Of a DNA stretch of 62,652 nucleotides, positions 4,315-54,820 are shown one piece after another. A model generated the notes under the pieces. The model had not been told where the DNA came from. It searched no databases and saw nothing but the letters and a program-made list of their open reading frames with translations. Where the stretch lies: contig JAFRAK010000048.1 in assembly GCA_017405445.1 (NCBI GenBank), positions 1 through 62,652 on the forward strand, read 5' to 3'. Positions within the stretch are counted from its first letter, which is position 1; each line of letters starts with the position of its first letter. The translations under genes were made by a program, and so were the position numbers. The stretch is from Bacilli bacterium (GTDB lineage: Bacteria; Bacillota_I; Bacilli_A; RF39; UBA660).

Positions 4315-6213
4315 ATGAGAAAGATAACACATTATTTGATGTTATTACTTTGTTTGATGTTATTGCCTCATCAAGTATTTGCTTTAGAAGAAGGTCTTGA
4401 TACAAATAACAGTACAAGTAATGTAGTAATATCAGAAAACAATGAAAAAGAAGAAAAAGAGGAAGATAATCTAGTTGAATTAGGGGAAGAAAATCTAGTT
4501 TCATTAGAAGAAGAAAATCTAGTTGAATTAGGGAAAGAAAATTTAGATCAACCAGAAGAAAAGAAAGAAGTAGAAGAGTTAGAAAACAATAATGAGTTGA
4601 ACACTCTAGCAGAAACTGAAAATTTAGATGGAGCAGGAACTGAAAACTTAGATGGAACAGGAACTGAAAATTTAGATGGAGCAGAAACTGAACAAGACCC
4701 TGAATCTGCTGAAAAAGAGACAGAAGTTCAGACTACAGAAGGTGAGACTGATAGTCTTATATATGTAGAAGAAATCAGTTTTTCTGGTGTTCCTTCTGAA
4801 TTAACAGTAGGAGAATCTTTCCCATTTGGAGGAGAAACTCTAGAAGGTGCTCCATATCATTATGTTTGTTCATCATGGCATGGTTATGGATATTCTTCAT
4901 CAGATAATCCTAGTTGGAATGCAATTTTTCAAGAAGAAGGACATTACATTGATAAAGTTTTACCTGATATGGATTTTAGCCTTGAACTATATGTTCATTT
5001 AGATGAAGGATATACTTTTGGAGAATTTACTGAAAGTTATTATGATATTGATGGTGAAAATGATGGCCTTTATCGTACTTTAAAAATTAATGGTACTGAA
5101 TATGATGTTACTATTGTTCATGATACTGATAATGATTATTGGTTTTATCCAAATTATTCTGTTTCTTCATTTGATCCTAATGCAGTATATCAAGAAGGAT
5201 TAACACTAGATAATATCAATGAAACTCCTACTGAAGGACAAGAACCATTATTTGGAGCAGAAGTTGAAGAAGAACATTTTAAACTTGCAACAGAAGTATG
5301 GTATACATATGAATATACTTATGATGATGAGGGTTGGTTAACAGATATTCACGTATATGCTAATTATTCTGATTCTAGTTATCAAGAAGATTATGAAGAA
5401 ACATTTACTGTGTTCTCCAATGAAAAACTATATTCATATGCCATTATTGTTGTACCTGATGAAGGATATCGTTTAAAGATTAATGTTGATGAAAAAAACT
5501 ATACTACAATTCCACTTACTTTTAATGGAAAACAACAAGATGTTTATGTTTCAACAATTCTTGATGATAATGGAAAATTGATGTTTTATAGGATGCGTGT
5601 TTTAGAAGATGTTACTCCAACTACAGAACAATATTCTATTACTGAACATGCTGATATGATAATTGATAAATCTGAAGGTGTTGATTTAGCAATCAAATCT
5701 GATGGAGCATTTTCATTATTTAAAAATGTATATGTAGATGGTAAAATCCTTGATCCAGAACATTATATGACTGGTGATGGAGAAACAGTTGTAAAATTCA
5801 GTAATGATTATTTACAAACTTTATCTACTGGTACTCATGAAATTGCTTTATCATTCTCTGATGGTAAAAATGCATATACTACAGTAACAATAACTGATGT
5901 TAATAATGCTGAGGAAGAAGAATTACCATCTGATGGAACAGGATCTAGTGCTGGTGTAGTTGAGACTACAGCACCAGTAACATATACTACTGATACAGTT
6001 CCTACAACAATCACTACAACTAGTGAAAATGATAATACATTAGAACCTGTTGATGAAGAAAAAATAAAAGATCAAGAAACTAAAAAAGATGATAAAGATA
6101 AAGAAGAAAAAGAAGAAAAGAAAAATAAAACAGGTTTATGGATTGCATTAGTTGTATTATTACTAATTGGAATTGCAATACCAGTTACTATTTATAGAAG
6201 AGAAGAAGAATAA
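4315..6213 (+). CDS. Repeat-bearing surface protein with signal peptide and C-terminal anchor
   Basis: 632 residues. Signal peptide 1-24 (ending QVFA). Residues about 40-145 are acidic low-complexity sequence with short tandem repeats (NLVELGEE-type and TENLDGAG-type). Residues about 150-530 form tyrosine- and aspartate-rich beta segments without a family I recognise. A T-rich linker (about 545-580), a lysine/glutamate-rich stretch, one membrane helix (about 605-625) and the tail YRREEE follow. KNKTG just before the helix recalls the NPKTG motifs of other surface proteins here, but the acidic tail is unlike a classic sortase signal. Strong GGAGGT ribosome site. Probably cell-wall-spanning and displayed. 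Confidence 0.7.
   Translation: MRKITHYLMLLLCLMLLPHQVFALEEGLDTNNSTSNVVISENNEKEEKEEDNLVELGEENLVSLEEENLVELGKENLDQPEEKKEVEELENNNELNTLAETENLDGAGTENLDGTGTENLDGAETEQDPESAEKETEVQTTEGETDSLIYVEEISFSGVPSELTVGESFPFGGETLEGAPYHYVCSSWHGYGYSSSDNPSWNAIFQEEGHYIDKVLPDMDFSLELYVHLDEGYTFGEFTESYYDIDGENDGLYRTLKINGTEYDVTIVHDTDNDYWFYPNYSVSSFDPNAVYQEGLTLDNINETPTEGQEPLFGAEVEEEHFKLATEVWYTYEYTYDDEGWLTDIHVYANYSDSSYQEDYEETFTVFSNEKLYSYAIIVVPDEGYRLKINVDEKNYTTIPLTFNGKQQDVYVSTILDDNGKLMFYRMRVLEDVTPTTEQYSITEHADMIIDKSEGVDLAIKSDGAFSLFKNVYVDGKILDPEHYMTGDGETVVKFSNDYLQTLSTGTHEIALSFSDGKNAYTTVTITDVNNAEEEELPSDGTGSSAGVVETTAPVTYTTDTVPTTITTTSENDNTLEPVDEEKIKDQETKKDDKDKEEKEEKKNKTGLWIALVVLLLIGIAIPVTIYRREEE
4468..4690 (+). repeat. Short tandem repeats inside the surface protein gene
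   Basis: Three to four imperfect copies of a unit encoding ENLVELGEE (4468-4548) and three copies of a 27-base unit encoding TENLDGAGT (about 4614-4690). Such repeats change copy number easily by slippage. Confidence 0.75.
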
Positions 6214-6235
6214 CGTCATATGACGTTATTTTTTT
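6211..6235 (+). terminator. Terminator after the surface protein gene
   Basis: Perfect TAACGTCA / TGACGTTA stem, 2-base spacer, seven T; it overlaps the stop codon. Confidence 0.85.
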
Positions 6236-6306
6236 GTAAAGTAATCATTTTTTTAATCTATATTTGTCTTTTTATGTTATACTAAGTAAGAATAGGAGGC
6301 ATCTCT

Positions 6307-7092
6307 ATGAATATTAGTTTCTTATTTGTTTTGGCTGCATTACCAGTTGTTTTTATCTTATTGTTTGTATATAAGAAAGATAAGAATAAGGAACCTTTGT
6401 CATTACTTATTAAATTATTCTTAGGTGGTTTTGCATCCTGTTTTCTTGTTTTACTTGTATCTTATGTATTAGGATTGTTTTTTCCATTTATGGATTCAAC
6501 TCTTCCAAATAGGACTTTTTTAGATATCATTTTATATGCCTTTATAGGAGTTGCTTTAGTAGAAGAAGTATCTAAATGGATTATTGTATATTTGATGGGA
6601 TATCATAGTAAAGAATTTGATGAATTATATGATGGTCTGGTTTATTCAATTTTTGTTTCATTGGGATTTGCATTTGTTGAAAATATTTTATATGTTGTGA
6701 TGACTTCTAGTATTTCTACTGCATTACTTAGAGCAGTATCTGCTGTACCTAGTCATGCATGTGATGCAGTATTTATGGGATATTATATAAGTCTTGCCAA
6801 ACAATATAGTTTGGTTAATAAAAGAGATGGTGAGAAAAAAAATCTAAGATTAAGTATTTTAATTCCTACTTTACTACATGGAGTATATGATTATTGCTTA
6901 ATGTCTAATTACGATGTATTAGTTGGAATCTTTGTTGTATTTGTAATTATATTGTATTTTATTTCTATTAAGAGATTAAAAAATATCTCTATTAATAATA
7001 AAAAGATTTTATTCCGTAATAAGTTTTGTGGTAATTGTGGGAGAGCAGTTACTGGTCCATTTTGTGCAAATTGTGGAAGTAGGCAAGAATAG
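6307..7092 (+). CDS. PrsW-family intramembrane metalloprotease with C-terminal zinc ribbon
   Basis: 261 residues with about seven membrane helices. The family motif EEVSKW lies near residues 86-91, an FAFVENILY segment near 117-125 and a conserved LLHGVYDY near 195, which together carry the E/E/H residues expected of PrsW/CPBP-type proteases. In Bacillus PrsW makes the first cut in the anti-sigma factor RsiW. The unusual part is the C-terminus: CGNCG...CANCG at about 241-257 forms a rubredoxin-like zinc ribbon facing the cytoplasm, absent from classic PrsW. It could sense or bind a partner. Good AGGAGG ribosome site. Confidence 0.75.
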   Translation: MNISFLFVLAALPVVFILLFVYKKDKNKEPLSLLIKLFLGGFASCFLVLLVSYVLGLFFPFMDSTLPNRTFLDIILYAFIGVALVEEVSKWIIVYLMGYHSKEFDELYDGLVYSIFVSLGFAFVENILYVVMTSSISTALLRAVSAVPSHACDAVFMGYYISLAKQYSLVNKRDGEKKNLRLSILIPTLLHGVYDYCLMSNYDVLVGIFVVFVIILYFISIKRLKNISINNKKILFRNKFCGNCGRAVTGPFCANCGSRQE

Positions 7093-7114
7093 TAATTCTT
7101 GTCTTTTGTTTTTT
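7083..7114 (+). terminator. Terminator after the PrsW-like gene
   Basis: CAAGAA(T) / ATTCTTG stem and T-rich tail; the gene stop lies inside the stem. Confidence 0.6.
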
Positions 7115-7127
7115 CCTAAGATATAAT
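7099..7127 (+). promoter_or_regulatory. Sigma-A-type promoter of the glycosyltransferase gene
   Basis: TTGTCT (7099-7104), 17-base spacer, TATAAT (7122-7127), about 20 bases before the start codon. Confidence 0.65.
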
Positions 7128-7145
7128 GAAGATGGAGATGAGATT

Positions 7146-8147
7146 ATGAAAGTATTATTATATACTGAAGGAGAAAAGATGTTTTCTAAGAGTGGTCTAG
7201 GAAAAGCAATAAAACATCAAATGAAAGCTCTTGAATATGAAAAAATAGAGTATACGAAAGATATTCATGATCAATATGATATTGCACATATTAATTGGTA
7301 TGGATTAAAATCTTATTTTTTAGCTAAAAAATGCCATAAAAAAGGTATTAAAGTAGTTTATCATGCTCATTCTACGGAAGAAGATTTTAGAAATGGTTTT
7401 ATTTTTAGTAAGCAAATTGCTCCTTTGTTTAAAAAATGGTTAATTAAATGTTATAGTATGGGAGATGTTATTGTTACTCCAACTCCTTATTCGAAAAGAT
7501 TATTAGAAGGATATGGGATTACAAAACCTATTTATGCTATTTCTAATGGAATTGAATTAGACAAGTTTAAATTAGATCCATCTCTTAGACCTGTATTTCG
7601 AGAAAGATATCATTATAGTGAAGATGATAAAGTATTAATTGGAATTGGTCTTTATATTGAAAGAAAAGGAATCGTTGATTTTGTGGAACTAGCAAAAAGA
7701 CTTCCTGAGTATAAATTTATTTGGTTTGGATATAGTCCTTTATCTGCAGCTACTAAAAATGTTAGAGATGCTGTTAATACAAAACTTCCTAATTTAGTAT
7801 TTGCTGGATATGTGGAACAAAGTATTATTGCAGAAGCAATGAATGGATGTGATATATACTTATTCCCAACTTTAGAGGAAACAGAAGGAATTCCTATTAT
7901 TGAGGCCTGTGGTTGTAAGAGAACAGCTATTGTTAGAGATATTCCTATTTTTGATGAATGGCTTGAAGATGGTAAGAATGTTTATAAAGCTAAAGATGTT
8001 GATGAATTTGAAGATAAAATTAAAAAGATTTTATCAGGAGAATTACCTCCAACAGGAGAAGCAGCTTATCAAGTAGCATTAGATCGAGATATTAAATCTG
8101 TTGGAAAACAATTACATGAAGTTTATGATGAAGTATTAAAAAAATAG
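7146..8147 (+). CDS. Family 4 glycosyltransferase, CpoA-like (glycolipid synthesis)
   Basis: 333 residues. The N-terminus MKVLLYTEGEKMFSKSGLGK closely resembles CpoA-type enzymes, which add the second sugar to monoglucosyl-diacylglycerol in streptococci. GT4 features are visible: HINWYG, VVYHAHST, VTPTPYSKRLLEGYGI, SNGIELDKF, and the C-terminal donor-site region LFPTLEETEGIPIIEAC (about residues 238-256), containing the E-x7-E pattern. The enzyme would act at the inner face of the membrane on glycolipids that stabilise the bilayer and may anchor lipoteichoic acid. The monoglucosyl synthase usually beside it is not in this window. It carries its own promoter and a bidirectional terminator. Confidence 0.75.
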   Translation: MKVLLYTEGEKMFSKSGLGKAIKHQMKALEYEKIEYTKDIHDQYDIAHINWYGLKSYFLAKKCHKKGIKVVYHAHSTEEDFRNGFIFSKQIAPLFKKWLIKCYSMGDVIVTPTPYSKRLLEGYGITKPIYAISNGIELDKFKLDPSLRPVFRERYHYSEDDKVLIGIGLYIERKGIVDFVELAKRLPEYKFIWFGYSPLSAATKNVRDAVNTKLPNLVFAGYVEQSIIAEAMNGCDIYLFPTLEETEGIPIIEACGCKRTAIVRDIPIFDEWLEDGKNVYKAKDVDEFEDKIKKILSGELPPTGEAAYQVALDRDIKSVGKQLHEVYDEVLKK

Positions 8148-8178: not shown

Positions 8179-9278
8179 TTTTGTGAAATATTTAAAAGTA
8201 TTCCAGCAATTAACATATAAGATAATAAACTACTTCCTCCGTAGGAAACAAAGGGGAGAGTAATTCCTGTTATTGGGGCAAGACCAATTGTCATTCCAAT
8301 ATTTTGTATTTGTTGGAATAATAACATTCCAATAATTCCAGAAATAATAAATTTGTCTGTATCTTCTATTTTCTTTTTTGATAAGACAATAATATTAACA
8401 TCTAGATAAAGAATGATTGCAAGAAGTATTATTACTCCTATAAATCCAAAATTAGATGCATATACTGCGAAAATAAAGTCTGTCGAAGATTCCGGAAAAT
8501 AAATTGGAGTTTTATTATAACCATGTCCAAACAATCCAGCAGATCCTATTGCTGTTAAAGCATTTTCAAGTTGAAGACCAGATCCTTCTTTCCATTTTAT
8601 TATTCTTTCTAGTCTGTAGTAGATGGAAGAACCAAATATTTTGATAAATATATTTTCTTTATATAGATATAAATATAAGAATCCTCCTATTGTGATTCCT
8701 AATAAGATAAAAGCAATAATAAACCATTGAATTCTAATTCCTGATGTAAACATCATTGATATATATATTACTAAATAAATGATGACACAACCAGTATCTG
8801 GCTGAAGAAATGTTAATATAGATGGAATTGCGACTATCATTAAAGTTTTTAATATAAAAATAAATTCTTGTTTCCACGTAGGAGTATCATAGTCATTACG
8901 AAAATTATGAATCATTGTTGCTAGTGTTAACATTAAAAATATTTTCATAAATTCACTTGGTTGAATACTACCAATTCCTGGAATAGTAAACCAACATTTA
9001 CTACTATTAATAGGATCTGCAAATAATAATAATCCTATTAATAAAAGATTACCAACGATATATAATATCCAAGTTCTTCTATATAAATATTCATTTTTTA
9101 ATTTCATTAATATTATTACTAATAGCCATCCAATTCCATACCATATTGTTTGTTTTAAGGCTAGATTTCCTAAAGACTTAGATGTATACATTAAAGCACT
9201 GTTGATTGTAATAATACTAATAATAGATAAAAGAATGATGGGAATTAATATTCTTAGATTAATTTTTGTGTTTGTCAT
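8151..9278 (-). CDS. RodA/FtsW/SpoVE-family glycan polymerase
   Basis: 375 residues with about ten membrane helices. SEDS-family landmarks: INSSKCWFTIPGIGSIQPSEFMK (the conserved WI-PSEF region, about residue 95-112), LQPDTGC, the large extracellular loop with LIKWKEGSGLQLENALTAIGSAG-type sequence and the C-terminal LPFVSYGGSSLLSYM. These proteins polymerise peptidoglycan strands with a class B penicillin-binding protein. The sequence looks closest to RodA (elongation), but SpoVE (spore cortex) is possible in a spore former and cannot be told apart here. Single gene on the reverse strand with GGAGGGAA-type ribosome site. Confidence 0.8.
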   Translation of the reverse strand: MTNTKINLRILIPIILLSIISIITINSALMYTSKSLGNLALKQTIWYGIGWLLVIILMKLKNEYLYRRTWILYIVGNLLLIGLLLFADPINSSKCWFTIPGIGSIQPSEFMKIFLMLTLATMIHNFRNDYDTPTWKQEFIFILKTLMIVAIPSILTFLQPDTGCVIIYLVIYISMMFTSGIRIQWFIIAFILLGITIGGFLYLYLYKENIFIKIFGSSIYYRLERIIKWKEGSGLQLENALTAIGSAGLFGHGYNKTPIYFPESSTDFIFAVYASNFGFIGVIILLAIILYLDVNIIVLSKKKIEDTDKFIISGIIGMLLFQQIQNIGMTIGLAPITGITLPFVSYGGSSLLSYMLIAGILLNISQKKNRTYKYR

Positions 9279-40186: not shown

Positions 40187-40219
40187 GTTGTATAATTAAG
40201 ATAATAAAGGATGATAGGA

Positions 40220-42727
40220 ATGAGAAGATTTCAAGATAAAACAATTATAATTATTATTCTTATTGCAGTTGCCTTGTTGACAGTAGGTTATTCTGCATTA
40301 GCTTATACCTTAAGTCTAGGAGGAACAGCTCATTTTAGAACATTTTGGGATGTTTATTTTGATAATGCTCACGCATTAGAAGGTAGTGTTCAACCAGATA
40401 GTGCTGTTACAATTGATGCTACTAATCCATTAAAAGTAAATTATAGTGTTTCTTTTTCTAATATAACAGATTATTATGAATTCAGTGTAGATTTAGTTAA
40501 TTCTGGTACGATGGATGCAATGATAGATTCAATTGTTCCTTTAGCTAATGGAAATAGTTTTGATAATTTACCTAATTATTTAGATTATAGTATTGCTTAT
40601 GATGATACTTGTGGAATTGAAGCAAAACAATTATTATCTGCTGGTGAGACAGAAACAATTATCTTTAGAGTAGGGGTGAAAGAAGGTACTACTGCATCTG
40701 ATATTCCTTCTCCTGTTTCTCCTATTCCATTTTCTTTAGAAATTGTATTTGCTGTTGCGGATAATACTGCAGTAGAAGTAGATAGACCATTTGTTTATAA
40801 TGTTTTAAGAAGAGAAGTAGATAATGAAGGACTTGCGATAGAATATACTGGTACTCATAAAGATTCATTTACTGTTAATGGGAATAAAAAAATATATCAC
40901 TGGTATGCTGATAATGCTACTGATGGTGCAGAGGTTTTAAATAAAAATAATGTTATCCTTGGAGGAGTTTGTTGGCAAATTTTACGTACAACAGATACTG
41001 GGGGAGTAAAATTAATTTATAATGGTGAAGAAGAAAATGGAGAATGTCAGACTACACGTGGTACTCATTTTGGTACAAAAACATCTTCCATTATAGATTT
41101 AGATGGTGATTATTATTATGCAGATGATTATACTTATGATTCTACTAATAATTTATTTACTTTAAGTGGTACCAAAACTTCTATTCATTGGAGTGATTCA
41201 ACTTATACTGGTACAATACATAAATATACTTGTTTATCTAATGATCCAGATGCTACTTGTTCTACTTTATATTTAATTACGAGTTATTATAGTAGTACTA
41301 AAGGAAATGTTATTGGTTTTAATACTAATGTTCCTTATTATTCGATTGGGAGTGGAACATTTAATGATGATCCAGATAGTCCTTCAAAAGCAGGGTATAT
41401 GTATCATAAGGATTATGAACCAATAACACAAAATAATTCAACTTCGTTAAGTATCTATACTAGTAGAACAGGTGTTTCTAATAGTTCTGTTTATGTTAGT
41501 ACTGGAATATCTTATAATGATGCAACTAATCAGTATACTCTTGTTAATGTTGATGAAAGTGCTGTTACTAGAGTTACATGGAAAGATTCTTATAAAAATA
41601 ATGTAAATAAATATACTTGTTTAAAATATGCTGATACAACGTGTGATTCTGTTTATTATATTGTTTCTACTGCATTAAATGGTGTTTATTATGTAGAATT
41701 AAGTAATGGACAATTATTAAATGATGTGAATACCAATATGTATTTCGCAACTTCTTATGAAGGAAATACTTTAGTTAATCCAGTATCTGTTGGTAAAGTA
41801 GATTGGGCAGGAAGTCATTCTTATGCAGGATATTATTTCTGTAGTGATTATACAGAAACTACTTGTAGTGGACCAGTATTGGCAGTAAGAACTGCTGCTG
41901 CTACTTCTATTAGTTACTATTCTAGTGAAAACTCTGTTTTATTTGGAACTGATGTTAGTTATGATGATGTAAATGATGTTTATACTTTATCAGGAGATAC
42001 AAAAGAAATTTGGAATTTTGGAAGAAATAGTGATGTTATATTAAATTATCATTATACTTGTTATAATACAACAGGTACTTGTAGTGAAGTAAGATATGTT
42101 ATTGAACAAAATTTTAATTCTATGGGTTATTATAATTATATTATTCTGGATGATGAAGAAAATATTGAAGCTGTTGCGGATGAATTATTCTTTGGGGATA
42201 ATATCAATGTAAATGATTCTGATGCTAAATTCTTGATAGATGAATGGTATCGAAAGTATTTTATTTCTAATTCATCTTATTTGGAAGATGTAATTTATTG
42301 TGGAGATCGTAGTATTTCTAGTTTAGGATTTTTAAATCCTAGTAATAATGTTGGAGGTGTTGCATCTTTACAATTTAATTCTAGATTGGGAGATACTGGA
42401 TTATTGTGTCCTAATGAAACAGATCAGTTTAGTGTTTCAAATTCTAAAGCACATTTAACTTATCCTATTGCTTTACCATCATTACCAGAACTGGCAATAC
42501 TCGGAGATAATTCTATTCGTGGTGTGGGAGAGGTATATTATACTATGACACCTGATGGTTATACTAGTGCAATTGATATTAAAACTATTAGACCTGATGG
42601 TAGTTATTTGAATAGTCAAACAAGTGGTGGAATTGCTTATGCTCTTAGACCAGTTATATCTTTGAAGCCTGGTGTTAAATATGTAAGTGGAGATGGTTCT
42701 AAGACAACTCCATATCGAATTAATTAA
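40220..42727 (+). CDS. Large surface protein: TasA/camelysin-like N-domain and WY-rich / FGE-like C-domain
   Basis: 835 residues from the ATG at 40220 after ATAGGA. N-terminal membrane segment (about 9-30), N-domain with FWDVYFDN and YYEFSVDLVNSGTMDAMI (about 40-190). Next comes a module shared with 42796 and 52448: TGTHKDSFT, KIYHWYADNA, VCWQILRTTDTGGVKLIYNGE. Then Ser/Thr/Tyr-rich beta repeats with paired cysteines (HKYTCLSNDPDATC types). The C-terminus ends ALRPVISLKPGVKY, the tail of DUF6273/FGE-type lectin-like domains. Probably displayed on the cell surface through the N-terminal helix. Ordinary AT-rich composition throughout, in contrast to its neighbour. Confidence 0.65.
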   Translation: MRRFQDKTIIIIILIAVALLTVGYSALAYTLSLGGTAHFRTFWDVYFDNAHALEGSVQPDSAVTIDATNPLKVNYSVSFSNITDYYEFSVDLVNSGTMDAMIDSIVPLANGNSFDNLPNYLDYSIAYDDTCGIEAKQLLSAGETETIIFRVGVKEGTTASDIPSPVSPIPFSLEIVFAVADNTAVEVDRPFVYNVLRREVDNEGLAIEYTGTHKDSFTVNGNKKIYHWYADNATDGAEVLNKNNVILGGVCWQILRTTDTGGVKLIYNGEEENGECQTTRGTHFGTKTSSIIDLDGDYYYADDYTYDSTNNLFTLSGTKTSIHWSDSTYTGTIHKYTCLSNDPDATCSTLYLITSYYSSTKGNVIGFNTNVPYYSIGSGTFNDDPDSPSKAGYMYHKDYEPITQNNSTSLSIYTSRTGVSNSSVYVSTGISYNDATNQYTLVNVDESAVTRVTWKDSYKNNVNKYTCLKYADTTCDSVYYIVSTALNGVYYVELSNGQLLNDVNTNMYFATSYEGNTLVNPVSVGKVDWAGSHSYAGYYFCSDYTETTCSGPVLAVRTAAATSISYYSSENSVLFGTDVSYDDVNDVYTLSGDTKEIWNFGRNSDVILNYHYTCYNTTGTCSEVRYVIEQNFNSMGYYNYIILDDEENIEAVADELFFGDNINVNDSDAKFLIDEWYRKYFISNSSYLEDVIYCGDRSISSLGFLNPSNNVGGVASLQFNSRLGDTGLLCPNETDQFSVSNSKAHLTYPIALPSLPELAILGDNSIRGVGEVYYTMTPDGYTSAIDIKTIRPDGSYLNSQTSGGIAYALRPVISLKPGVKYVSGDGSKTTPYRIN

Positions 42728-42795: not shown

Positions 42796-45501
42796 ATGAG
42801 GAGAATAAAAAGAAGTAAATCTAAAATTATTGTTGGAATTCTATCAAGTATTGTTTTAGTATTAACTATAGGATATTCTTTCTTGTCGCTTAATTTAAGA
42901 GTATTAGGTCTTGCCCATATAGGTGCAGTATGGAATATTCATTTTGATAATATTACAATAAATCCTGATAGTGCAAGTTTATCTGCAGGTGATATTGAAC
43001 CAGAAATAGATGAAGATAATGATTGTAAAATTAATTATAAAGTTACACTTACTCCAGGAGACTTCTATGAATTCAATTTTGATATTGTAAATGAAGGAAC
43101 CATTGATGGAATGATACAAAATATCATCACAAGAATAGAAGAAGATGCAACCGCAACATTTCCAAGTTATATAGATTATCATATATCTTATTCAGATGAT
43201 GTGGTTTTAGAAACTAATCAACAATTACTTGCGGGCACAACAGAAACATTAAAAGTAAAAGTAGAATTCAAAGATGAAGAAAATGTTCCACAAAGTGAAA
43301 CATTAGATTTAAGTTATGAAACTAATTATGTTAAAAAAACAAGTTCTGCTACCAAAGTAAAACACCCACAACCTTTATATAATGTGTTTGAAGATGAAGC
43401 AAATAGTGGAAGTGGTTTTGCAAGACAGTATACTGGACAGCATCATGATTCCTTCACAGAAGAACCATCTAAAAACATTTATCATTGGTATGCTTCTAAT
43501 GCAACAAATGGAACGACAATTTTAGATAAAAACAATGTCATATTTGCGAATCATTGTTGGCAAATGATTAGAACAACCGATACTGGTGGAGTAAAGATGA
43601 TTTATAATGGTGAAGCAGTAGATAACCAATGTTTATCTACGCGTGAAACGCATGTGGGATATGCACCTAGAACAAGCCAAAATTTAGCTTCCGCCTATTG
43701 GTATGGAACTGATTATACTTATGACTCTACAGCAAAAACATTTAAAGTAAGTGGCACAATAGAACAAACTACATGGAATGCTACAACAGGACCTAATTTA
43801 ATAGGAAAATATACTTGTAAATTAACAAGTGAAGATGGTTCATGCACCACCTTATATTTAGTAGAGTCATATTACAATACGACGAGTGCTTATGTAATAC
43901 TATTAAACTCAAATTCCAATTATTCACAATTTGGAACTTTACCATTTAATGCAAGTTATATTTCACCAACTTATGTTGGATACATGTATGGAGATGTTTA
44001 TGCATACAGCACAACAAATGGAACAACAAGTCAAAGCTTTACAACAACACAAACTATGTTACAATCAACATCTTTAGAAACATCATACTGGTATGCTGAT
44101 AGTATTGATTATGGAACTCTAACTGCTAATCGATATTCATTAGTAACCCCATACCAAGTAAGTGTTACTACAGATTATCCTAATTTGGTAGGAAAATATA
44201 CGTTTAGAAGTTCGAATCAAACAAATACTGCAACTAATGTTTACTACATAGCAGCAGTTAATAATACAACAATGTATTATAAGCAACTACAAAGTGGTAA
44301 TCTGCTATCTGCTTACGAACCAATAGTGTTTGGAGATTCCATTCGTGACAACGAAGATGGTACATATACAATTAATAATCCAACCAATGTAACATTATCT
44401 GATTGGTATACAAATTATGCAAATTATAAAGAAAAATATACATGTAATGATAGTAGTACAACATGTGCTTCTCCAAGATATACTACAGCCACAACATCCA
44501 CGAACTATACCTATATAAATGCAGGGGAGAATATCATGATTGGAAAGACAAGAAGTGGATTAACTCTTACGGATACAATTTTAGTTAGAAAAGATGAATT
44601 AGTAATTAATTCAAGTAATTATAGTGACTATAAATATACATGTAATACAGATAGTGCAATATGTACAGAAGCAACACTCCGAATGATATCTGGATATAGT
44701 GCAACAGGATATAACTATGCTCCAAATCATTATTATGGTAGTAGCGTAATATGGGATGGAACCAATTATACATTGGTAGATCCAATAGAAATCGAAAACT
44801 ATAATAATATGAATAATATTTCTACACATCATTATATGTGTGTATCAAACGGATTAAAAACGTGTGCGACAGTAGCTTATGTATATTATTATACAGGTTC
44901 AGGAACAATGTATTATATAACATTAAGAGATGGAGTTACAACAGTAGGTAAAGCACTAGAAGATATGCTGACAAAAAACACCACAAATTCTACAATGAAA
45001 AGTGGAGTAGATGCATGGTATAAACATTATCTATTAGAAGATTATGATGATTATATAGAAGACACAATATTCTGTAATGATAGAAGTATCAGAGCGTTAA
45101 ATGGATGGAATCCAGATGGTGGTATGACAAATACATATCTACAATTTAAAGGATATAGTGTAACAAGTGATTTAAGTTGTACCAATACAACCGATAAATT
45201 CAGTGTATCAAATAGTAATGCTCAATTAACTTATAAAGTAGGATTGATGTCAAGTCCGGAGATGAACATTTTAAATAATGTAAATGCTCGAAAAACGGGA
45301 CAAGATTATTGGCTTGCTTCGCCTGTCTATTTTTCCGACAACACCGCTCAAGGTCGTCGCGTGAGCACGGGCGGCGGCTTGAACAGCATCGTCGTCTACC
45401 TGTCTTACGGCGTGCGTCCGGCAGTTTCACTGATACCAGGCATCAAGTATTCTGATGGAGATGGAAGTATGGCTAATCCATATATTATAAAAACAAATTA
45501 A
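42796..45501 (+). CDS. Large surface protein with candidate hypervariable C-terminal cassette
   Basis: 901 residues from the ATG at 42796, after GGAAGGATAT; the TTG at 42778 precedes it. Layout as in 40220: membrane segment (about 12-32), N-domain (VWNIHFDNI, GDFYEFNFDIVNEGTIDGMI), module with TGQHHDSFTEEP, NIYHWYASNA, CWQMIRTTDTGGVKMIYNGE, long Thr/Tyr-rich region, and a C-terminal FGE/C-type-lectin-like end with YWLASPVYF ... LSYGVRPAVSLIPG. Codons for that end (45313-45423) are GC-rich and differ sharply from the AT-rich remainder, suggesting replacement by homing from a template. It would act as a surface ligand-binder. Confidence 0.7.
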   Translation: MRRIKRSKSKIIVGILSSIVLVLTIGYSFLSLNLRVLGLAHIGAVWNIHFDNITINPDSASLSAGDIEPEIDEDNDCKINYKVTLTPGDFYEFNFDIVNEGTIDGMIQNIITRIEEDATATFPSYIDYHISYSDDVVLETNQQLLAGTTETLKVKVEFKDEENVPQSETLDLSYETNYVKKTSSATKVKHPQPLYNVFEDEANSGSGFARQYTGQHHDSFTEEPSKNIYHWYASNATNGTTILDKNNVIFANHCWQMIRTTDTGGVKMIYNGEAVDNQCLSTRETHVGYAPRTSQNLASAYWYGTDYTYDSTAKTFKVSGTIEQTTWNATTGPNLIGKYTCKLTSEDGSCTTLYLVESYYNTTSAYVILLNSNSNYSQFGTLPFNASYISPTYVGYMYGDVYAYSTTNGTTSQSFTTTQTMLQSTSLETSYWYADSIDYGTLTANRYSLVTPYQVSVTTDYPNLVGKYTFRSSNQTNTATNVYYIAAVNNTTMYYKQLQSGNLLSAYEPIVFGDSIRDNEDGTYTINNPTNVTLSDWYTNYANYKEKYTCNDSSTTCASPRYTTATTSTNYTYINAGENIMIGKTRSGLTLTDTILVRKDELVINSSNYSDYKYTCNTDSAICTEATLRMISGYSATGYNYAPNHYYGSSVIWDGTNYTLVDPIEIENYNNMNNISTHHYMCVSNGLKTCATVAYVYYYTGSGTMYYITLRDGVTTVGKALEDMLTKNTTNSTMKSGVDAWYKHYLLEDYDDYIEDTIFCNDRSIRALNGWNPDGGMTNTYLQFKGYSVTSDLSCTNTTDKFSVSNSNAQLTYKVGLMSSPEMNILNNVNARKTGQDYWLASPVYFSDNTAQGRRVSTGGGLNSIVVYLSYGVRPAVSLIPGIKYSDGDGSMANPYIIKTN
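45313..45423 (+). other. GC-rich, NNC-codon block: candidate DGR variable region
   Basis: A hand count gives 67 G/C in 111 bases (60%), against AT-rich DNA on both sides. It keeps the reading frame. Many codons end in C (for example aac agc atc gtc gtc tac in a row), the pattern expected when AAC codons of a template are changed at adenines. It encodes the loop region before GVRPAV of a lectin-like domain, the usual place of DGR variation. No reverse transcriptase or second copy lies in the window. Confidence 0.55.
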
Positions 45502-52315: not shown

Positions 52316-52447
52316 TAATAAAAATGAACAACTTATGTTGTTTTTAGTATTGTAAAGTTATTTCACTCATTTGTGTATTAGAGTTTATATTTATTATTAA
52401 ATGTTGTATAATAAGTATTAGATAATAAAGATATGGATGTGATTCAT

Positions 52448-54820
52448 TTGAAAAGATTATTATTAACTGTTTTTTTATTTGTAATGTTAGTTCCTAATAT
52501 AGTTAATGCAGAATCAAAGTATCTTTATGATGTATTAAAAGAGGAAGCAGAAAGTGGAGGACTAGCTAAAGAATATACAGGAGAACATCATGATTCTTTT
52601 ACAGAAGAACCAACTCATAAAATCTATCATTGGTATGCAGAAAATGATGAAGAAGGAAATCAAGTACTTGAAAAAAATAATGTTATTTTTGGAGGATATT
52701 GTTGGCAAATGATAAGAACTACCGATACAGGTGGGGTTAAAATGATTTATAATGGAAAAGAAGATAATGGGAAGTGTCTTAATTCAAGAAATAATCATTT
52801 AGGAATAGCTACCAAAAAGGGAAATATAAATCTTGATTCTGATTATTTATATGGAAAATCTTTTTTATATGATGAAGAAAGAAGATTATTTATTTTAACT
52901 GGAGATACCGAAACAAGAAAATATCAAGAGGAAGATTATTTGAATTTTATAGGATTGTATACATGTGGAAGTATGAATACTGAATGTGAAGAATTATATC
53001 AAATAATAAAGGAAAAAAATACTACTGGTAATGTTTTAATTTTTAGTTTTAATGAGACTATTCCGTATAGTATGATTAGTAAAGTACCTGTTAATTATCC
53101 TTTTTTATCCCCTTCTTTTATTGGATATATGTACAACACTATATATCCTGAAAATGATAATTATATAAATACAAATGAATGTATGGTGTGTGACCAAAAT
53201 AAAGATGCAATTTATTGGTTTGGAGATTCCTATACTTTAAATCAAGATGAAACAATTTCAATAAATAATGCAAAAAAAATTACTTATTGGAATTGGTGGT
53301 CAGATAATAATTATTCTAATATGAATAATAAATATGTATGTAAAAATTCATCACCTGATAATTGTACACACTTATGGTACTCAACTGCTACAAATATGAA
53401 TTATTTTAGTCATAATAATATTTACAAATATGCAAATGGTTTTACATATTCAAATGGTAAATATAAACTTAATAATGATAATATCATTATAGATAATCTA
53501 AAAAATGATTCTAATTTAAAAAAATTAGATTCTCATCATTATACATGTTTAGATATAAGTAGTGAATGTAATGAGATTTACTATTTATATGAATATAGTG
53601 GCTCCTATTTTTCTAGTATAACTCTACGAGATGGTCAAAGTATAGAAGATGCAATAAATAAAATGTTTTTTGAAGACAATGTTAACAAAAAAAATTCAAC
53701 TATAAAATCTTCAATTGAGGCTTGGTTTCATAATCATTTAATTGATTATGATGAATTTATTGAGGATGCTATTTATTGTAATGATCGAACTATCAGGTCA
53801 TATGGTGCATGGAATCCAAATGGTGGGCCAATGAGCTGGAATTTGTATTTTACATATAATGATACTGGTGATTTGAAATGCAATAACGTTACGGATCAAT
53901 TTAGTATATATAATAATAAAGCAAAATTAGATTATAAAATTGGTTTAGCAACTAGACCAGAATTATATTTATTAAATAATAATATGATAAGAAATGTTGG
54001 AGAAAACTATTGGCTTTTAACGCCATATGGATATTATTTAACAGAAAATTATATCAATCAAAATGGAGCAATTAAAAATACCAATCTCTACTTTTCATAC
54101 GGAGTTAGACCAGTTATATCTCTTATGCCAGAAATAAAATATAATGCTGGAATCGGTGAGAAAAATAATCCATATATAATAGATACTAGAACGAATTTTA
54201 TAATAAATGTAGAGATGAATAATGATACGGAAGATTTAACAATAGAAATAAATGATATGACTCAAGTAGAATCTGAAGAAGAAGTAACGTTTAAAGTAAC
54301 TCCTATTAAAGGTTATAAAGTGACTAGTTTGAAAATTATAGATGAAGATAATCATGAAATAGAATATGAAACTATTGATAATAAGAATTATTCGTTTATA
54401 ATGCCAGCTAGTAATGTAACAATAATACCTTCCTATGAAAGAGTAAGTAATAGTGTAATTGTGGAAGATAATAAAAATACAAAGCAATTTATAATTGAAG
54501 TAAATGATTCTAAAGCTGTAGTATATGAAGATAAAGTTAAATTTACTATTACACCTGAAGATGGATATGAAGTAGAAGATGTTGAAATTAAAGATGGAAA
54601 AGGAAATATTGTAGAGTATAGAAAAACAGACAAAGAAAATGAATATGAATTTATTATGCCTGATACTGATGTAATGATTCATCCGATTTATAAGAAAATA
54701 GATAATTCATTAAATAATCCTAAAACAGGAAATAGAGTATTTATTATATTATTAATAGTTATTAGTTTAGGAATAGGAATTATTATATTTAAGAAAAAGA
54801 TATTTAGATGTAAAGTCTAA
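52448..54820 (+). CDS. Surface protein with WY-rich module, two beta repeats and NPKTG anchor
   Basis: About 790 residues. Starts considered: TTG 52448 (after GTGAT, preferred), GTG 52439, ATG 52433. Signal peptide ends IVNA. The N-part repeats the module of 40220 and 42796 (EYTGEHHDSFTEEP, IYHWYAEN, GGYCWQMIRTTDTGGVKMIYNG), without the camelysin-like domain. The C-type-lectin/FGE-like end (NYWLLTPYGYY...YGVRPVISL) lies near 520-565. Two copies of a beta repeat follow (VTFKVTPIKGYKV...YSFIMPASNVTI and KFTITPEDGYEV...YEFIMPDTDVMI), then NPKTG near 757, a membrane helix and a basic tail: a sortase-type signal. Composition is uniform and AT-rich. Confidence 0.72.
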   Translation: MKRLLLTVFLFVMLVPNIVNAESKYLYDVLKEEAESGGLAKEYTGEHHDSFTEEPTHKIYHWYAENDEEGNQVLEKNNVIFGGYCWQMIRTTDTGGVKMIYNGKEDNGKCLNSRNNHLGIATKKGNINLDSDYLYGKSFLYDEERRLFILTGDTETRKYQEEDYLNFIGLYTCGSMNTECEELYQIIKEKNTTGNVLIFSFNETIPYSMISKVPVNYPFLSPSFIGYMYNTIYPENDNYINTNECMVCDQNKDAIYWFGDSYTLNQDETISINNAKKITYWNWWSDNNYSNMNNKYVCKNSSPDNCTHLWYSTATNMNYFSHNNIYKYANGFTYSNGKYKLNNDNIIIDNLKNDSNLKKLDSHHYTCLDISSECNEIYYLYEYSGSYFSSITLRDGQSIEDAINKMFFEDNVNKKNSTIKSSIEAWFHNHLIDYDEFIEDAIYCNDRTIRSYGAWNPNGGPMSWNLYFTYNDTGDLKCNNVTDQFSIYNNKAKLDYKIGLATRPELYLLNNNMIRNVGENYWLLTPYGYYLTENYINQNGAIKNTNLYFSYGVRPVISLMPEIKYNAGIGEKNNPYIIDTRTNFIINVEMNNDTEDLTIEINDMTQVESEEEVTFKVTPIKGYKVTSLKIIDEDNHEIEYETIDNKNYSFIMPASNVTIIPSYERVSNSVIVEDNKNTKQFIIEVNDSKAVVYEDKVKFTITPEDGYEVEDVEIKDGKGNIVEYRKTDKENEYEFIMPDTDVMIHPIYKKIDNSLNNPKTGNRVFIILLIVISLGIGIIIFKKKIFRCKV

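Follow-up and report, generated by a model that had tools for sequence, protein, structure and literature searches.

A probable diversity-generating retroelement variable repeat in a cell-surface DUF6273 gene of an uncultured Bacilli bacterium, remote from any reverse transcriptase

Introduction

Diversity-generating retroelements (DGRs) with surface-protein targets have been described from bacterial chromosomes, in a survey of cellular DGRs that acknowledged remote targets but missed them by its method (PMC8144416). The locus described here shares with those systems a C-terminal variable repeat (VR) carried by a surface protein of several domains, differences between VR and template repeat (TR) that are specific to adenines and, in sister species, a DGR-type reverse transcriptase (RT) motif and an accessory ORF. 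It differs from them in that neither RT nor TR lies near the VR. DGR targets with the VR at the C-terminus of a DUF6273 domain have been reported in gut phages (PMC11792537, PMC10743442), and this domain resembles C-type lectin (PMC10743442). The DUF6273 targets of Faecalibacterium prophages and the gut-phage tentaclins likewise hold the VR in a DUF6273 called C-type-lectin-like, but these are phage proteins, whereas the protein considered here belongs to the surface of the host, an uncultured Erysipelotrichaceae-like bacterium with AT-rich DNA. With the DGR of Bordetella phage BPP-1 (bRT-Avd, PDB 8ub7), the system has in common the VR-TR-RT logic, AAC codons, RT homology, and a 3' boundary that is GC-rich, IMH-like and marked by a VR/TR mismatch. 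It departs from BPP-1 in the MutS domain I fused to the sister-species RT, in the order TR-accessory-RT, and in a sister-species accessory ORF without detectable sequence similarity to Avd.

Results

A GC-rich block in frame within a surface gene

The window, that is, the whole stretch of 62,652 nucleotides analysed, is contig C10 of a MAG of 57 contigs that is 71.6% complete and comes from a gut-type bacterium. An earlier note on this DNA had singled out a GC-rich in-frame cassette at 45313-45423 in the surface gene 42796-45501. Measurement bore this out: the G+C content of the block is 60.4%, against 31.0% for the remainder of the gene and 27.6% for the whole window, and the gene is open. 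The block is the most G+C-rich 111-base region of the window. Only 15 of about 62,500 segments of that length have at least its G+C content, every segment above 55% starts between 45286 and 45363, and the edges are sharp. The intact frame and the row AAC AGC ATC GTC GTC TAC among the NNC codons were present as described, and the block does lie between the motifs YWLASP and GVRPAVSL. Its end at 45423 also stood; the start was refined to 45309 for the segment held in common with the template (Table 1). The VR ends about 25 codons upstream of the stop codon.

Table 1. Features of the VR-bearing gene, its surroundings and the second VR of the same genome
Feature	Position	Strand	Basis or remark
Target gene, 901-aa surface protein; its C-terminal DUF6273 (C-type-lectin-like) domain holds the VR	42796..45501	+	sequence, DUF6273 profile match
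DUF6273 (PF19789) match	45172..45432	+	E 3.6e-5; 24.1 bits against a curated cut-off of 23.5
VR, homologous to the sister-species TR	45309..45423	+	24/38 TR adenines and 4/75 other bases changed
5' anchor TTGGCTTGCTTCGCCT	45309..45324	+	identical to TR, adenine-free
Mutable stretch VYFSDNTAQGRRVSTGGGLNSIVVYLSY, spanned by the variable codons	45325..45408	+	template codons mostly AAC, here mostly NNC
GC-rich stretch GGCGTGCGTCCGGCA	45409..45423	+	identical to TR
Perfect 10-bp inverted repeat directly 3' of the stop codon	45502..45526	+	T run at its end
Paralogous surface gene without VR	40211..42727	+	loop 32% G+C
Paralogous surface gene without VR	52433..54820	+	
Second VR of the same genome	C35:6153-6263		against TR: A 20/38, non-A 6/73

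The VR occupies the 3' end of the gene within the DUF6273 domain, as expected of a DGR target; the lectin fold is taken from PMC10743442. A C-terminal DUF6273 match was found in 15 of the 16 aligned members, the window protein included. When the last 200 residues were modelled with AlphaFold from 6 sequences, the pLDDT was 36, and no fold is claimed from this model. The hydrophobic N-terminal stretch of the protein may be a membrane anchor or signal. Over the C-terminal domain, the closest match with a named organism was the uncultured Erysipelotrichaceae MAG RUG12586 (67% identity), a record that is apparently the genus member G045. The inverted repeat that follows the gene is probably a terminator; we considered that it might be the downstream hairpin needed by some DGR targets, but it looks terminator-like instead. 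The two paralogues that the earlier note had placed at 40220 and 52448 proved to be genes that share the C-terminal domain family of the target protein and lack the GC-rich block.

Template repeat and reverse transcriptase in sister species

When the block was used as a query, matches were obtained in several genomes of the same genus, with two nearby copies in each of G002:C114 and G018:C25. Both contigs carry a cassette in the order VR-bearing DUF6273 surface gene, TR, 140-aa ORF, and RT. The TR, which is the AAC-rich one of the two copies, lies beyond the target gene and next to the RT; it starts with TTGGCTTGCTTCGCCTAACTATTTCAACAAC and, if translated, reads NYFNNNNANGRNVNTNGNMNNNNVNNTNG. 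It has 48% G+C, and the versions of G018 and G002 differ by one base (100%/99% identity). The second copy that the earlier note had suggested looking for, differing mainly at adenines and lying near an RT, is found in these two genomes and not in the assembly of the window's own genome (71.6% complete).

The motif (I/L/V)GxxxSQ marks DGR RTs. IGAMTSQ together with YMDD is present in the RTs of both G002 and G018; the pair (I/L/V)GxxxSQ and YxDD is from the sister species only. The G002 RT matched RVT_1 (E 1e-18) and, among the PHROG families, a reverse transcriptase (E 5e-72). The closest PDB structure was 8ub7, the Bordetella DGR RT, an entry that also contains Avd chains. A MutS domain I (PF01624) is fused at its C-terminus, a weak match of 23.4 bits against a cut-off of 20.6; on the locus L022, an RT fused to MutS domain I lies at 5642-7138 on the minus strand (RT residues 357-399). 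MSL (PF01624) is among the listed DGR accessory domains (PMC10053308), and the fused domain may possibly supply the accessory function on the RT itself. Among the accessory types Avd, HRDC and MSL, it is this domain that was found, in the sister species only. The 140-aa ORF is Avd-like by place and size only, and a profile search against Avd gave no significant match. No folded RNA was detected between TR and RT of G002 (z 0.07). Searches of phage and plasmid collections for the TR, of viral contigs for the VR domain, and of all 39 genus genomes for a predicted second template type AACGAGTGGAACGTGAAC with 2 mismatches were all negative.

Changes almost confined to template adenines

Comparison with the G002 TR revealed where the window VR has changed: 24 of 38 adenines differ, whereas of the 75 remaining bases only 4 do (C 3/32, G 0/22, T 1/21; Fisher p 4.7e-11). 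The VR of G002 differs from its own TR at 19 of 40 adenines and at none of 80 non-A positions. When eight VRs were pooled against the TR, 160 of 304 A sites were changed, compared with 38 of 600 others, and 30 of these 38 lay at third codon positions. Such confinement to adenines is characteristic of mutagenic retrohoming and hard to get otherwise. The claim that the block is a DGR variable region is therefore borne out by an AAC-rich template that adjoins a DGR-type RT in G002 and G018 and by changes almost confined to its adenines. The four non-adenine differences between the window VR and the sister-species TR could reflect differences in the genome's own TR, or drift.

The G+C content of the block follows from the same changes. 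The block is GC-rich because 24 adenines of a 48% G+C template have been replaced, mostly by G, T and C; this replacement predicts a G+C content of 0.62, and 0.60 is observed. The mutated codons are NNC because most mutable TR codons are AAC. The G+C excess is a by-product of adenine replacement.

The position after GGCGTGCGTCCGGCA, 45424, is G in the window VR and in most other VRs, and A in the TR. By the definition of IMH used here (PMC3240598), a GC-rich identical part followed by a TR mismatch at the 3' end of the VR was seen in the window VR and in most of the others. By position and make-up, GGCGTGCGTCCGGCA with the mismatch at 45424 is a candidate IMH element.

Variable repeats across the genus

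The block recurs in the same genome on contig C35 (Table 1), where no RT was found in the 12 kb downstream. The two VRs differ from each other at 30 of the 38 TR-adenine sites and at 10 of 73 others (p 1.2e-11), a comparison that uses own-genome sequence alone once the adenine positions have been named from the TR.

In total, VRs were found in eight genomes of the genus and a cognate RT in only two. The assemblies of G044, G045, G049, G005 and G024 contain VRs of this family but lack a cognate RT; in G044 (96% complete) and G045 (94%), no recognisable DGR-type RT was found. Across the genus, VR-bearing surface genes are common, and the cognate RT/TR cassette is rare and nearly identical between two species. 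In G018, one VR lies on contig C7 and another beside the TR on C25, which suggests an arrangement in trans; both contigs are fragments. The VR beside the TR of G018 (L023 5604-5804) fits that TR worse than a VR located on a different contig, with one extra codon and EW replacing GR, as if from another template.

Other DGRs were encountered. G018:C21 (L076, 6143-9835, minus strand) contains a second DGR of that genome with an unrelated template (repeat pair 8254-8406/8625-8777), a target gene, an Avd-sized ORF, an RT divided between two frames, and another, small ORF in which a resemblance to MutS domain I was noted by eye. In the G047 bin, a phage-like contig recoded at TAG (table 15) (C7; L077, 6-9570) has its own DGR, with a VR at 7431-7556 ending a 2519-aa protein, a TR at 8196-8318, and an RT read through several TAG codons. 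The IMG/VR contig 3300005443_000005 (L063, 4120-7026) carries a complete GC-rich viral DGR with a VR at 5165-5282, a TR at 5696-5813, an Avd-like ORF, and an RT.

Discussion

We regard 45309-45423 with high confidence as a DGR variable repeat in the 3'-terminal part of a gene for a DUF6273 protein of the cell surface. Two readings that dispense with a retroelement were weighed against this and rejected. The sharp G+C edges would suit an assembly chimera, in which a foreign GC-rich piece had been joined into the gene, but the same in-frame block with the same flanks occurs in the independent MAGs G002, G018, G024, G044, G045, G049 and G005, and recurs on C35 of the own genome; these copies refute a chimera, whose chance we put at practically nil. 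Ordinary diversifying selection, or gene conversion between paralogues, in a ligand-binding loop would be in keeping with a paralogous family that has variable loops. It leaves unexplained why changes should be confined to the A positions of a separate repeat adjoining an RT, and why G002 shows no non-A change at all; the VR/TR pattern of G002 contradicts it, and we consider it highly improbable.

A harder matter is where the RT is. The statement of the earlier note that no RT or template lies in the window extends to the whole own assembly, in which profile, protein and DNA searches found no RT, TR or accessory gene. The protein search detects relatives only 32-40% identical in other members of the genus, so an RT is very probably absent from the assembled contigs. 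Since the assembly lacks 28% of the genome, the most economical reading is a DGR that acts in trans, and we think it rather likely that the missing portion contains an RT and TR that would act on both VRs of this genome. The main rival is an orphan VR, a relic of past DGR writing whose RT and TR have since been lost and whose sequence is now fixed. It shares the DGR origin with the trans reading and disputes current activity only, and the two estimates overlap; we give it a substantial but less than even chance. The failure to find RT or TR in the own assembly speaks for it, as do the scarcity of the cognate RT among the VR-bearing genomes and the example of G044 and G045, where VRs may have outlived the RT. 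Set against it are the incompleteness of the own assembly and the frequent loss of repeats and mobile elements in MAG binning. In addition, 95% identity to the sister-species TR at non-adenine sites, with 60% G+C maintained in a 28% window, points to little drift since the last write. It is also conceivable, though we hold it unlikely, that the RT/TR cassette is a shared element that comes and goes, rewriting resident VRs in trans and leaving orphan VRs frozen between visits.

If a DGR acts on this gene in trans, the RT would copy the AAC-rich template RNA and misread its adenines, and the mutated cDNA would replace the VR between the 5' anchor and the GC-rich, IMH-like 3' boundary. About 20 residues would be re-drawn with the frame kept, NNC never being a stop codon, whatever the mutation. 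The variation may serve binding, or escape from phage or from immunity.

DGR variable repeats in DUF6273 were already known; the one seen here is a genuine VR that lies far from any RT, in a protein of the host surface. The finding raises the question of whether VRs persist without their RT. In an AT-rich genome, adenine replacement raises G+C sharply enough for a remote DGR target to be recognised from composition alone, and VRs missed by contig-based surveys can be flagged by a 3' block that is GC-rich and has NNC codons. The known targets are extended by a DUF6273 family of the host surface, from an uncultured genus related to Erysipelotrichaceae in which a genome carries more than one VR.
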